A DNA stretch of 64,000 nucleotides from positions 2,237,966 to 2,301,965 of the forward strand of contig CM020514.1 in the NCBI GenBank assembly GCA_009823395.1, written 5' to 3'. The position numbers were made by a program, and so were the translations under genes. The notes under the pieces were generated by a model, which was not told the DNA's origin, made no database searches, and was given only the letters and a program-made list of their open reading frames with translations. This DNA is from Thamnaconus septentrionalis. Lineage: Eukaryota; Chordata; Actinopteri; Tetraodontiformes; Monacanthidae. Position 1 is the stretch's first letter. Every line of letters begins with the position of its first letter. Positions 7,400-15,100 of the stretch are shown in pieces.

Positions 7400-9560
7400 C
7401 TGAGGGGAGCACGCCACCTAACTAGCTAGCTTCATTGTTTACACACGGCCTTTATCAGCTATCTCATAGTCATAAAACCTATGAAACATTTGACAATTTT
7501 AACAGAAAACTGAAATCAACTTTGGACTCTGTGGCTCCAGTTGTCACAAAAACTATAAAAAGTAAACCCAAACCCCCAAGGAGATCTGCAAATGGAATCC
7601 CAGAATTAAAAAGACAATGCAGGAGTGCAGAGAGAAGGTGGAGAAAAAGTAAATTAACAGTCGACTATGAAATATTTCGTCAGCTACTCAAATCTTACAA
7701 TAAAACTGTCAAACAGGCAATAATATCCCATTTCTCCATCCTCATCACAAACAATAGCAAAAACCCTCGATTCCTTTTATCCACCTTCGATCTTTTAACT
7801 AATAAAAATTTTAATCAGGGTCTACAGACACCAACAGATGCCCTCTGTGAGGATTTTGCAGACCACTTCGTAAGTAAAATTGATGTCATTAGGTCCAGTA
7901 TTTTAACTAATCAAAATCAAAATTTTTACACATCTGGACAACCACTTTTATCTGAGGAAACACTGGAGAGTTTTGCTCTGGTTGACGCAAGGACACTTGG
8001 TCGAGTTTTCTCCCAAGTGAAGCCCACAACCTGCCTTTTAGACCCGATTCCCACATCACTCTTAAAGTCACTTTATGGGTTCTTTGAGGAGCAGATTTTA
8101 TATATTGTCAATTGCTCTCTTCAGACGGGTGTTTTCCCTGCTGCCTTTAGAACAGCGGTGGTGAGGCCCCATTTGAAGAGGAGCAACTTGGATCAAAACA
8201 TTTTTAATAACTACTGACCATTATCCAATTTACCATTTTTAAGTAAGATTTTAGAAAAACTTGTTTTTAACCAAGTAAATGACTTTTTAAATACAAACAA
8301 TATTTTAGAGAAATATCAATCTGGTTTTAGAAAGAACCACAGTACTGAGACAGCCCTTTTAAAGATCGTCAATGATCTCAGGTGTAACGCAGACTCTCAG
8401 AAGCTGACAGTCTTGGTGCTACTGGATCTAAGCGCTGCTTTCGATACAGTAGATCACCATATTTTATTAAATAGACTCAGAAACCTGGTGGGCTTGTCAG
8501 GTACTGTTTTTAAGTGGTTTCGTTCTTATCTGACAGAATGCATGAAATTAGATGTGGGGTCGCCCAAGGGTCAATTTTAGGTCCGGTTCTTTTTAATCTG
8601 TACATGCTTCCCTTGGGGGACGTCGTCAGGAAACACGGCATCAGCTTCCACAGCTATGCTGATGATACACAAATGTACATTGCCGTGTCTCCTGATGACA
8701 CAGGGCCAATTGATGCCCTTTTTAACTGTATTTTAGATATCAAATCATGGATGGCAGAGAATTTCCTACAGCTCAACCAGGACAAAACCGAGGTTTTAGT
8801 TATTGGTCCTGAAGGCCGGAGAGAGGAACTTTTACCAAAACTTTGGGATTTTAAACCCTCGCAATATGTAAAGAATCTGGGCGTTGTTTTTGATTCTGAG
8901 CTCACCTTTGTTCCGCATATAAAAAATATTACAATGATAGGTTTTTATCATCTAAAGAATGTAGCCAGAATCCGCCCGTTCCTCTCTCAGGCCAACACGG
9001 AGGTGCTAATGCATGCTTTTATTTCCTGTAGATTAGATTACTGCAATGCCCTGCTCTCTGGTCTTCCCAAAAAGAGTGTTTACAGTCTACAAATACTACA
9101 AAACTCAGCAGCACGTGTGCTGACTAGGACCAGAGGAAGGGAACACATTACACCGGTTTTAAAGTCGCTGCATTGGCCCCCCGTCCGCTTCAGGATTGAT
9201 TTTAAGGTTCTCTTATTAGTTTTTAAATGTCTTAACGGTCTTGGCCCATCTGACCTGCTTTTATCATATCAGCCCTCGCGGAACCTGAGGTCTTCTGGCA
9301 CTGGCCTGTTAACTGTTCCCCGAGTCAAAACCAAAACCCATGGTGAGGCTGCTTTCAGCCATTACGGCCCTACTCGGTGGAACAGCCTGCCAGAGAGCCT
9401 CAGGGCCGCAGAGACTGTTGATATTTTTAAGGGGAGGCTCAAGATGTATCTTTTTAACCTGGTGTTTAACTGATTTATTTTACTCTTCTCTCTCTTATCC
9501 CACTAATTTTATGCCGTTTTACTATTTTTATGCCTTTTATTACCTTCAATTGATTTTTAT
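7400..9560 (+). mobile_element. L2-type LINE, 5-prime truncated, decayed
   Basis: Plus-strand pol fragment with the endonuclease-RT linker, then the RT domain: PIPTSLLKSL, TGVFPAAFRTAVV, the NYxP motif, LLDLSAAFDTVDHH (first catalytic Asp) and HSYADDTQMY (YADD box), ending with an L2-type C-terminus (WNSLPESLR). Three lesions are visible. A TGA at 8215-8217 replaces the Arg of the NYRP motif (CGA to TGA, a CpG transition). Near 8530 about twenty codons expected between the LSDR-like motif and GVAQG are missing. The reading frame changes at that point (7435-8530 in one frame, 8514-9473 in another). The endonuclease domain is absent. Exact 5-prime and 3-prime ends are uncertain. It sits in the intron/3-prime region of NLR copy A. 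Confidence 0.85.
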
Positions 9561-10791: not shown

Positions 10792-10917
10792 TGCTGGAGG
10801 AGTATTTGTGTCTCTTCAGACAGACTCTGCCTTCAGTTAGCTTAGCAGAATGGCAGAATGCTAATAGCATGAAAGCTATGTTAGCTCTCACGCTATTAGC
10901 ATGTATGTGTCTTCAGA

Positions 10918-11140
10918 CAGAAGGTCTGGCCCAGGTGGACCCGGCCACCGCCCTGGAGGAGGAGCAAGGTGGAGGTGGCCCGCATGCAGGAGAGGATGAC
11001 GCTGAAGCACCATAACAGTGGCAAGTGGGCCAAGTCCAAGGCCATCTTGGCCAAGTACGACCAGGAGGCCCGCAAGGCCATGCAGGAGCAGCTGGGGGTC
11101 CACAAGGAGCTGACCATGAAGGTGGCGAAACAGCTGCAGT
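10918..11140 (+). pseudogene. utp14: utp14 fragment, part 1
   Basis: The plus strand encodes LAQVDPATALEEE and then, after a one-base frameshift near 10965, VARMQERMTLKHHNSGKW followed by AKSKAILAKYDQEARKAMQE. This is the conserved central block of UTP14, a nucleolar U3 snoRNP/SSU-processome protein needed for 18S rRNA maturation. A possible splice acceptor precedes it (CTTCAGACAG). The reading frame ends inside the TIR of the element that begins at 11141 (TTG TAA). The matching continuation starts at 14301. The frameshift and the insertion make it a pseudogene or gene relic; whether a full utp14 lies elsewhere cannot be seen here. Confidence 0.75.
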
Positions 11141-11395
11141 TGTAAAACCCAACTTGTTGTTTCAAATTAAAAATTCAAGTGTTCATGCTGCCTCGAAAAT
11201 TTCTTTAATTTCTTAAAGTTAACTCAATTAAATATTAGCATTTGATACAACAAGGGGTTGTTGAGACAACTTGATATTAATTGTTGATCTCACTTTTGTT
11301 TTTGTCACATTTAGTTGAAACAACCCAACATTGGTTGTTACAACTCCATCAATGGAAACTAAAAAAAAAACTTAAATCAGTCACCTGTATTTTGC

Positions 11396-12860
11396 TTACA
11401 CAATCTTTCTTAAAAGTTTGTTTCTCAAACCATGAACCAACGCAAAGCACTGCCCACCTCCAATGTCCATGAGGACTTTCTGAATCACTTCAAAAGTGTA
11501 CCTCAAGCATTTGGGATAGTCGATGTTCAGAGTGTAAAGCAGACCCATCAGCAGTTCCACAGCTTTAGGAAAATCGTTGAGGGATGAAAAGATGATTTTT
11601 TTTATCCGAGGACCACTCCAAAACCGATCTCTTCAACTCCATCTACCACCTTGAGGATGCCAACAGCCATTCCCTTGGTCATGTCCTCTTCAGAATCTGT
11701 GGCCTAAAACAAGTAGACAAACAATTATGGTGTTGCGTTTCAGCAGCAAGAAACACATGTGGTTCATAAACCTTTTATCTTGAGACCCAAAATAGACTAT
11801 ACTGTCTTTTCAGGGTCACAACTGTGCGTTTGATACAGATCGTCTATAAGCTCTACACATCCCATACTGCAAGTATGCATTGTGGGTTTGTAGATCTGTT
11901 TGTCTATTGCACGCACATAGGCACACCTTTGACACCCATTGACTAAATCAATACAAGATACAAAAGAGTGATGGCATAGGAAGCAAAAATAAAAAATATA
12001 AATAATATATATAATATATATAAATAATATATATAAATATATAAAACACAGAACCAATGGAACATCAGAAAAAATAATTGTATTTCTTGTTTTTGCATCT
12101 CCAGGGTTCATTTTACACTACACACGATTCATCCAATCAGAGAGAAAAAAAAAACCAGGTAAATAGCAAATGAAACAAATCAGGTATTTTCCCTGCAATA
12201 CCCTTTTCTACTATCCAGCAACAATGATACATTTTATATATTATGGGGCATATTAAAAGCAAATGTGATTTTAGCATGCTTACGTCACTATCCAGGCTCT
12301 TCAAAAGGTTCTTCAGTTCCACCAAACCGGTCTTAGCTCTGTAGATCTCAAGAAACTTTGACAAATACTTATCAAGTCCAGCAAAGAGGGCGCCCTTGAG
12401 CTCAATAGACATTAGACGAGTGAATTCTGCTTCAATCTAGGAGGCAAAAAAAACCAAAACACAATGCAAGGTATTTGCTGTTAATTCAATATTTACTGAT
12501 ATACAACTGCTTCAACAGTTTATAATCCATGCACTCTTTACAGATACATCCTTTACTCATTTGTAATCTACAAGTACATTACCTGACGTTCAGAAAACAG
12601 TGTTGGCCATTTAGCTTTGATGTCAGCTACAGGTGGCTCTTCTTCCACTATTTCCTTTCTCCGCAGAGAGAAGGTAGTGGACATCATTGCTTGAATTTTT
12701 TTCCAATCGACTTTCTTCTTCTTCATTTCTGCCACCATTGCTGTTCTTTCCTCATCAAGAGAGTATGGTGTTTGTCCTTGCGGAAGGTCTGGCAGGAAAT
12801 TAACTTCTGATTTTTTAGCTCTTTTAAGAATCTTTTGACCAGATTCACAGGCTGACCGAG
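11396..12860 (-). pseudogene. cargo gene of a repeated uncharacterised fish family
   Basis: At least four minus-strand pieces join into a recognisable protein. Piece a (12583-12860) has LPDLPQGQTPYSLDEER, then MMSTTFSLRRKEIV and IKAKWPTLFSER, ending at donor CAG|GTAATG. Piece b (12284-12436) starts after GCCTCCTAG and has ELKGALFAGLDKYLSKFL, ending at donor GAC|GTAAGC. Piece c, near 12050-12105, has AKTRNTIIFSDVPLVL and then runs into an AT repeat. Piece d (11396-11703, after GTTTTAG) has EEDMTKGMAVGILKVV and, in another frame, LLYTLNIDYPKCLRYTFEV and LRNKLL before a TAA stop. I recognise this order (Leu-Pro-Pro block, RRxEIV, WPxLF, leucine-rich middle, YTLNxxYPK, LRNKLL end) from many uncharacterised predicted proteins of fish and some invertebrates, sometimes annotated as SAM-domain-like. 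Function is unknown. A frameshift at an 8-base A run (11596-11603) and stops at the start of piece a show decay. Confidence 0.6.
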
Positions 12861-13263
12861 AGTTGATCTTGACCTCTTATCATTTAACCTAGAGAACACA
12901 CACACAAACAGTTGGTTAGGACAGATGTGACTTGATATTTGAAGTATTTTTTTAATCAACCTACCTGAAATATCTTTAGAAAAAAATCTTCATTTCAATT
13001 TCAGAAGTGTCAGTCTATCATGACAAAACATCTTTAAGATGGTAACTTAAATGAGTGGCAGTTCAACATGGCAACAAAGTAAAATGGGTCTCCTGGCTGC
13101 AAAATAAGGTAAATAAGAAAGAATGAAGTGCCGACAACAGAAAGAGCGCAGTTCTGTGTTTTCCACCAAAGGAACTGCAACTCAAGGAAAAATGATCACC
13201 TGGTTTAACCTGAACACTTTGTTTAAGGGGCAGTTTAAACGCATCCAGCGATTCATTAAAACC

Positions 13264-13286
13264 GTGTGTGTGTGTGTGTGTGTATT

Positions 13287-13317
<31 letters not shown>
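13264..13317. repeat. (TG)n microsatellite, interrupted
   Basis: Two TG runs separated by TATTTATATA inside the TIR element. Confidence 0.95.
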
Positions 13318-13771
13318 TTAAACCACATGTGAAAAAAAGATGCATATACACGCTTAGGCAGTAAAAACTGCGAGTTTACTGCCTAAAGGGGGGAAAGTAG
13401 AAAAAGAACACCTGCGGCACGCTACAGGCTGTGTGGAATTACAAGTATGGCTAATTGGAAGTACGCAATTGCGCGAAGTCTGTCCCAATTCACTCTGTCG
13501 ACAACAATTTTAACGACAATTTCGCGAAATATCATTCGTAAAACAGACCACTTCTCCCGTATGTGTGGGCACACTAAGAGTGGGGGTGGGGGTGGAGGTT
13601 CGTTTTAACGGCCCCAATTTATGGAGGCCAAAGGCCTGATGTAATTCACGGGACTCCGTGGTCATACGTTAACAAAGTTTTATATCGAAGCTATGACCGA
13701 ACATTTTTGCTGTATGCTTGCTAACAATTTGGTTCGTGTTAACTAGTTAGAATACTTGCGAGCGCGCGCAG

Positions 13772-13772
<1 letters not shown>

Positions 13773-13844
<72 letters not shown>
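13773..13844. repeat. (CA)n microsatellite
   Basis: About 35 CA units, preceded by GCGCGC; inside the TIR element, upstream of its cargo gene. Confidence 0.95.
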
Positions 13845-13848
<4 letters not shown>

Positions 13849-14300
13849 AATCCGGTAAACCGCGTAATAAAGAACCGTAAAACAAGTCGTAAGTCTTGTC
13901 GGTTAAAAATCATTAACACTCACCTTCGAACAAGTATTTCGCCAAGGTATTTCACAAGGCCTTTTTCTTGTTTTATTCGTCGTTTTTTTTCAAACTTGCC
14001 GCTTTTCTTCTCTCAGTCTTCTTCTGGCGGGAGGTACGAAGCCACGCGATGTCAGGACGTCGCACATGATGACATAAAACGTCGCACATGATTACGTGCA
14101 ACATCAAGTCAACTCAACGCACGTCAACTTTAGTTATTTTGTGAACATAACTAATTGTTATGTTTGAGTCAATGTTCATGAAGTTGCAACACTGTCAACT
14201 GATTATTTTGATTTGAAATGACTTTTTTAGCAAACCTTTATTATATTGACTAGAATTTTCTAATTAAAATAACAAAAAAAGCACTGTTGGGTTTTACAGT

Positions 14301-15100
14301 GTGGACGCGGAGGAGGTGGAGGAGGAGGATGTGGGAGAGGAGGAGGTGCTGCCTGACTTTTCGATGACGCAGAAGATGGAGGAGATTCCTCCAACCTCTG
14401 GATGAGAGGGAAGCTCTCTGAGGAGGAGAAGAGGAGCGATGCCGTGGCTCTCTCTGCTGGGGAGGAGGTGGAGAAAACTGTTGAGGAGGAGGAGGAAGAG
14501 CAGCAGGTGGAAGAAACTGAGGAGGAGGTGCTCCTCAAAGAGTTTGAGAACAGGAGGAAGTTCAGTCAGGATCAGGAGGCAGCAGCTGGAGCTGTGGAGG
14601 AGGAGGAGGTGTTGATGGACAAGGAGGAGGAGGTGGTGATGGAGGAGAAAGAGGAGGTGGTGATGGACAAGAAGGAGGAGGAGCTCTCAGAGTTCACTCA
14701 TGTTTTCCGAGAACTTGCAGACAGTGGTCCTCCTGCTGCTGCTGCTGCTGGGCCCGCTGAGCCAAAGTCCAGCAGGAGGAAGAGGAAGGTGGAGCTGAAG
14801 GAAATTCTCACCAAAGGGACCAAAGAAGTCCAGGTGGCGCTGGCGCCGACCGTGGAGGACGGCGAGGACTGGGAGGAGCAGCCGGACCAGAGAACCCTCA
14901 TCAGGGAGGCCTTCGCCGGCGACGACGTGGTCTCCGACTTCCTGAAGCACAAGAAGGTGCAGGAGGACCGGGCCAAGCCCAAGGAACTGGACCTGGTGCT
15001 GCCGGGCTGGGGCCAGTGGGGCGGCACCGGCCTCAAGCCGTCCCGCGCCAAGCGCAGGAAGTTTGGCGGCAAGCAGGAAGCTAGAAACACTGACAGCAAC
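14301..15100 (+). pseudogene. utp14: utp14 fragment, part 2
   Basis: Acidic sequence beginning VDAEEVEEEDVGEEE continues the utp14 frame interrupted at 11140. A frameshift near 14397 leads into the frame starting at 14402, where LLKEFENRRKF, then IREAFAGDDVVSDFLK and LPGWGQWGGTGLKPS are diagnostic of the UTP14 C-terminal half. The match stops after RAKRRKFGGK at about 15075, just before a (TG)n tract; the rest of the conserved C-terminus is missing. No introns are seen in the 0.8 kb. Reading frame damage at two points plus truncation argue for a dead fragment. Copy number and a functional utp14 elsewhere need a genome search. Confidence 0.8.

Follow-up and report, generated by a model that had tools for sequence, protein, structure and literature searches.

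The stretch of DNA analysed here (the window, 64,000 nucleotides of Thamnaconus septentrionalis, corresponding to C14:2237966-2301965 of the 474-Mb genome) contains a transposable element inserted in a copy of utp14. On its minus strand the element holds the remains of a gene from a large family of fish proteins, often unnamed or called SAMD3-like. The present work concerns this element, its relatives elsewhere in the genome, and the place of the SAMD3-like gene in them. In complete elements the gene is the second open reading frame (ORF2), and it stands behind a transposase-like first open reading frame (ORF1). Bare positions are those of the window.

The element in the window and its target site

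A first-pass annotation, made from the sequence alone, had described an element of about 3.16 kb at 11141..14298 with perfect 13-bp inverted ends. These ends are indeed present, at 11141-11153 and 14286-14298. Exact matches to the 13-mer numbered 18 in the genome, compared with 24 for the reversed control, which is the chance level for single matches; the pair, however, is inverted, 3.1 kb apart and placed around a foreign insert, and is therefore not due to chance. The element was thus real, while its proposed bounds were too small. Because two paralogous utp14 sites without the insert both read AAACAGC-TG-GACG, where the window reads AAACAGC-TG-[element]-TG-GACG, the element extends from 11137 to 14301 (3165 bp, genes on the minus strand) and is flanked by a 2-bp target site duplication, TG (11135..11136 and 14302..14303). 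The 13-bp core lies inside the true ends, and the bounds that took it for the termini were rejected.

The right terminal inverted repeat (14286..14301, minus strand, on the 5' side of the gene), read inwards and reverse-complemented, is CACTGTAAAACCCAAC, an end of the CACTG type as in CACTA/EnSpm elements. The sole other copy of this end was found at C4:0.81 Mb. The left terminal inverted repeat (11137..11153, plus strand, on the 3' side of the gene) is CAGTTGTAAAACCCAAC, a variant of the CACTG end; the idea that it arose by a 4-bp deletion of such an end was dropped, as the empty sites account for all bases. Next to the left end, at 11241..11344 (plus strand), lies a subterminal array of four 11-mers that resemble GTTGATACAAC with at most one mismatch. 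Such words were also found at the ORF2-side end at C5:15.47 Mb (two) and in the C8 stretch (three), with 0.01-0.02 expected (0.01 for the window), figures that are optimistic since the motif was chosen by eye from the same sequences, i.e. the window and two related ends. No GTTGATACAAC-like words were present at the other end of the element.

The annotation was also right that the element interrupts utp14 coding sequence: the right flank alone matched the Pfam Utp14 model with an E-value of 9.6e-23, and a peptide joined by hand from both flanks, with one residue assumed at the join, matched it at 3e-19. The interrupted gene is, however, a duplicated and diverged copy. Its left part (10900..11136, plus strand) is recognised from its paralogues and from Pfam, and its right part (14302..15100, plus strand), which contains frame changes, from Pfam and from the empty-site comparison. 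Searching with the left flank yielded the two insert-free paralogues, at C14:2234378 (96%) and C14:21439124 (94%). The former and the window copy (10900-15100) are about 14.5 kb apart and 96% alike, and the element is present in the window copy alone; the insertion therefore took place after the duplication, or the element was excised from the other copy without a trace.

As had been claimed, the element contains a spliced gene on the strand opposite to utp14, though a broken one, and no identifiable transposase. The gene has three exons at about 12583-12888, 12284-12436 and 11396-11703, with splice sites assigned by eye. Upstream of them, at 13924..14285, are the promoter side and a first, apparently untranslated exon that ends at a donor at 13924/13923 (CGAAG/GTGAGTG), a region common to the transposase-carrying copy at C4:0.81 Mb. 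Positions 12875..12888, also common to that copy, hold the acceptor side of the exon that encodes the zinc fingers of the transposase, and the deletion junction follows directly. The SAMD3-like family was identified by family matches in 12583..12874, 12284..12436 and 11396..11703. The gene covers roughly the C-terminal half of a family of about 500 aa, the N-terminal half being missing. The window copy cannot make a protein because, downstream of the acceptor, two stops precede the first codon of the family and the frame changes inside the last exon. Its best matches were fish proteins without a name or labelled SAMD3-like (99 among the matches listed). Neither element ends nor ORF1 were found at its closest relative, at C7:23.03 Mb.

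Complete elements and the linkage of ORF1 with ORF2

A search of the genome with the family gave 75 exon matches at E-values of 0.01 or better. Loci on C2, C3 and C15, with equal scores, proved to carry the same 7.4-kb element, with 98.7-99.3% identity between copies and unrelated flanks, so that this young family has moved recently. All three end with CACTGAAAAAA...TTTTTTTCAGTG (CACTG...CAGTG) and are bordered by 2-bp duplications, respectively AG/AG, TG/TG and TG/TG. They are complete copies of the kind that the first-pass annotation had proposed to look for, between ends and with target duplications. In the C2 copy, an open frame of 754 aa (ORF1), with C2H2 fingers followed by a transposase-like body, precedes ORF2, which lies on the same strand in several exons. 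A splice donor sequence coincides with the ORF1 stop codon, an acceptor lies 17 bases ahead of the ORF2 start, and the ORF2-side end bears three 27-nt repeats. Each of the three copies has one change of frame in ORF1. ORF1 plus ORF2 were also found in an older family, represented by copies at C17:0.316 Mb and C5:0.360 Mb (96.7% identity over 4.8 kb).

ORF1 has been lost repeatedly while ORF2 was kept. A copy of the young family at C5:1.82 Mb has both CACTG...CAGTG ends, ORF2 and a TA duplication and has lost the ORF1 stretch, and another one, at C17:0.40 Mb, has kept the left end and ORF2 and lost most of ORF1. The window element is likewise an ORF1-less product, from another family. Together with these two independent copies it brings to three the elements that lack ORF1 and keep ORF2, a number that could be due to chance or to some benefit of retaining ORF2.

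The C4:0.81 Mb copy matches the window at 13819-14302 (93%) and 12875-13371 (91%). It carries the right end of the window element, the intron and the acceptor, followed by C2H2 fingers and the start of ORF1 (tblastn, E-value 4e-34), and not by the SAMD3-like family. As it continues into ORF1 and the window copy into ORF2, one promoter end is followed by a different gene in each. Only one end was found at C5:15.47 Mb, and no ORF1 in the stretches retrieved around C5:15.46, C4:0.81 and C8:1.42 Mb. Among the six elements in which both ends could be read, five had a 2-bp target duplication.

The association between the two genes was quantified genome-wide, with matches merged into loci at 4 kb on one strand. 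The ORF2 loci combine the 75 exon matches mentioned above with those of a further ORF2 search. Use of a second ORF1 query raised the number of ORF1 loci from 41 to 44; a third query hit largely the same places and was left out of the locus set, and no rows were dropped. The nearest ORF1 was upstream and on the same strand at 24 of the 62 ORF2 loci, downstream at none and on the opposite strand at 4. Shifted controls for these sets gave means of 1.3 and 0.3, with maxima of 5 and 4 in 1000. The initial set (41 ORF1 and 62 ORF2 loci) gave 23 ORF2 loci with ORF1 upstream in the same orientation, none with it downstream, 4 with it on the other strand and 35 without a neighbour. When loci were shifted locally by 100 kb, 300 kb and 1 Mb and strands drawn at random, 1000 rounds gave means of 1.3, 0.6 and 0.3 (maximum 6). 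In the reverse direction, ORF2 was found downstream of 25 of the 44 ORF1 loci.

The ORF1 and ORF2 proteins

Judged by its sequence, ORF1, with four C2H2 fingers, is probably a transposase distantly related to tnp2. With E-values up to 10 allowed, 28 of 50 ORF1 members matched PF02992 (Transposase_21, tnp2), the best at 9.3e-5; other weak matches were to DUF4218 (7 of 50) and Plavaka (4 of 50). The residues D352/D353, D444, C464-x2-C467 and E538 are conserved in the 50 proteins and would fit the catalytic core of CMC-type transposases, according to the motif description in PMC12730594; this assignment was made by eye and leaves H(3-4)H unplaced. The search of solved structures returned only zinc-finger chains for ORF1.

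No Pfam family matched ORF2 above cut-off in the members examined, and the search of solved structures gave no relative. Weak matches were obtained among 65 members to PB1 (5 members, best E-value 5.2e-4) and Coilin_N (11 members, best 0.0045). Seven columns are invariant (N250, E273, P278, G283, F317, R320 and R321). Between the C2 and C17:0.316 Mb families, conservation at the three codon positions was.59/.70/.36 for ORF2 and.58/.75/.41 for ORF1; divergence is much greater at third positions than at the other two, so both proteins were constrained.

Relatives at E-values of 0.001 or better, among those scored, numbered 307 for ORF1 and 605 for ORF2, of which 120 each were listed. Those that are named are almost all from teleost fish, and the ORF2 relatives include Xenopus. 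A gene model of the anchovy Coilia grayii (1290 aa) consists of ORF1 (first 774 residues, 61% identity over 777 aa) joined to ORF2 (47% over 534 aa). It is the sole model of more than 1000 aa among the 120 ORF1 relatives listed. In other species, ORF1 and ORF2 relatives were noticed by eye that share, pairwise, their source and the size of their contigs (189172; 4690; 4679), which are probably the same contigs.

Many family members are called SAMD3 or SAMD3-like in public databases, while none of 10 proteins named SAMD3 matched the SAM model of Pfam, even at E-values up to 10. The part of SAMD3 that follows the SAM domain presumably resembles ORF2.

A probable second gene of CACTA/EnSpm-type elements

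We consider it very probable that the element in the window is dead and derives from a CACTA/EnSpm-type transposon by internal deletion, and that the SAMD3-like family is the second gene of this lineage, located behind the ORF1 transposase in complete elements and probably acting as its helper. The first-pass annotation had reasoned that, if the gene was regularly found between such ends, the family might be a mobile-element gene, and that this would explain its high copy number. The three complete elements, the directional linkage and the Coilia fusion bear out the first proposal, and with it we accept the second. Of the two roles that it had offered, an unrecognised transposase or cargo, the status of mobile-element gene holds, while the gene appears to be neither the transposase nor a one-off capture.

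Several observations weigh against this interpretation. No ORF1 match was found within 10 kb of 34 of the 62 ORF2 loci and no ORF2 match at 19 of the 44 ORF1 loci, and the genome searches scored only part of the candidates (59 of 176, with 69 matches, and 58 of 178 for ORF1; 86 of 171, with 96 matches, for ORF2). A strict end pattern was present beside 4 of 9 ORF2 loci, 3 of them young copies, in a search that also missed the window's own variant end and left orientation unchecked for some of the nine loci. Family members without ends nearby, which the annotation had named as evidence against its own proposal, include most of the old copies tested but make up part of the copies only. One end of the C17:0.316 Mb copy reads CACTGTAAAAACTGTT; the opposite end is damaged and, by eye, no duplication is present. 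This copy is the exception among the six elements mentioned above. In a closer scan of 10 ORF1 proteins, 5 matched PF02992 at E-values of 0.1 or better, all of them below the curated cut-off, and a search of the genome with the tnp2 profile found three above-cut-off loci that are not ORF1 loci and one ORF1 locus at an E-value of 0.02. Finally, the ratio of non-synonymous to synonymous changes (dN/dS) in the young family is based on few changes, and the ORF1-less pair, with 3 synonymous and 14 non-synonymous changes, indicates no constraint.

The ORF2 loci that stand apart from ORF1, and a window gene that is truncated, broken and enclosed in an element without transposase, would also be expected if a short element with terminal inverted repeats had captured part of a host gene (Pack-type), the whole family then being a host family. 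This is very improbable in our opinion, as three nearly identical full elements hold the whole gene behind a transposase, the co-location is directional at 24 loci versus 0.3-1.3 expected, and a fused gene model occurs in another fish order. A one-off capture of the gene was rejected on the first of these grounds. We give almost no credit to the possibility that the SAMD3-like protein acts as the transposase. The window element has no other gene, yet it is ORF1 that resembles tnp2 and bears conserved acidic residues; the seven invariant columns of ORF2, a family that the annotation had suggested aligning for Asp/Glu triads, include a single acidic residue.

The role of ORF2 within the element is less clear-cut. 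It could be a host gene acquired once, long ago, and retained outside the transposition machinery, either as cargo or as a factor that counteracts silencing or represses the element itself. The public names SAMD3 and SAMD3-like suggest similarity to a host gene, and derivatives that keep ORF2 without ORF1 have moved, which fits a protein dispensable in cis. Against this, the long co-inheritance with ORF1 and the alike codon-position conservation would suit a functional component of the element, and the second proteins of known CACTA elements take part in transposition, as reported in PMC1636069 and PMC4158355. We regard the cargo hypothesis as possible, though rather unlikely. By analogy, a helper role appears to be the likeliest one, with cargo or a silencing-related function as alternatives. 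ORF2 may be expressed from the same transcription unit as ORF1, as suggested by the donor at the ORF1 stop and the acceptor before the ORF2 start. Its product could be a DNA-binding, self-associating protein like TnpA that gathers the element ends through the subterminal repeats for the transposase, and it may also regulate the promoter of the element. The weak PB1-like N-terminus would fit self-association.

A close precedent is maize En/Spm, with TnpD as the transposase and TnpA as the helper. According to the same sources (PMC1636069, PMC4158355), TnpA, its second protein, attaches to the element ends and assists the transposase, and one spliced transcript gives rise to both. The fish elements resemble it in their CACT ends, short target duplication, subterminal repeats, and one-directional gene pair with a non-transposase protein behind and with splice signals compatible with a single transcription unit. 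They differ from it by a 2-bp rather than 3-bp duplication, by CACTG rather than CACTA ends and by the four C2H2 fingers of ORF1, and the likeness between TnpA and ORF2 is one of gene plan, not a comparison of sequences. SmTRC1, an animal CACTA element from Schistosoma mansoni, shares with them the 2-bp duplications, probably a tnp2-related transposase, and tandem open reading frames, which in SmTRC1 come from spliced transcripts; its ends, however, begin with CCC, and its second protein is described in PMC1636069 as having no detectable relatives, whereas ORF2 is conserved across fish and also found in Xenopus. Fungal EnSpm, Plavaka, ESTA and Lanisha elements of the CMCT group have CA..TG termini and 2-5 bp duplications, as in the fish elements, and a C(2)C motif between catalytic residues, to which C464-x2-C467 of ORF1 would correspond; some carry an extra conserved gene, a TET/JBP dioxygenase (PMC12730594), whereas ORF2 belongs to a different, unnamed family.

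With this interpretation, a large vertebrate family listed as uncharacterised or SAMD3-like gains an identity as a transposon gene, and repeat libraries gain a second protein with which to find vertebrate CACTA elements. How animal CACTA elements replace TnpA, an old question, becomes directly testable. Caution is also needed before such loci are read as host genes. An association study in carp reported single-nucleotide polymorphisms in a Samd3 gene (PMC8945855), which does not imply that the locus concerned is ORF2. Among open-licence PMC papers, judged by titles, abstract openings and a few passages, we recognised none that links SAMD3-like proteins with a transposon; Repbase may record such a link.

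A further, quite tentative proposal is that vertebrate CACTA elements have in ORF2 a helper of the TnpA type, conserved over great evolutionary depth, and that SAMD3 of land vertebrates either arose from it, by domestication and addition of a SAM domain, or gave rise to it. If true, a gene family annotated in fish and one vertebrate host gene would share a mobile-element history.

A distant ORF1 (33-35% identity, 901-aa frame with one stop) was found at C34:9466-12099, with no ORF2 detected; its lineage may lack ORF2 or have a much changed one. The three loci above the tnp2 profile cut-off (C14:665820, C14:330320 and C6:23697028) represent other CACTA lineages in the same genome. In the window itself, reverse-transcriptase-like open frames at 7426-9473 (plus strand), upstream of the utp14 copy, probably belong, by eye, to a long interspersed nuclear element (LINE).
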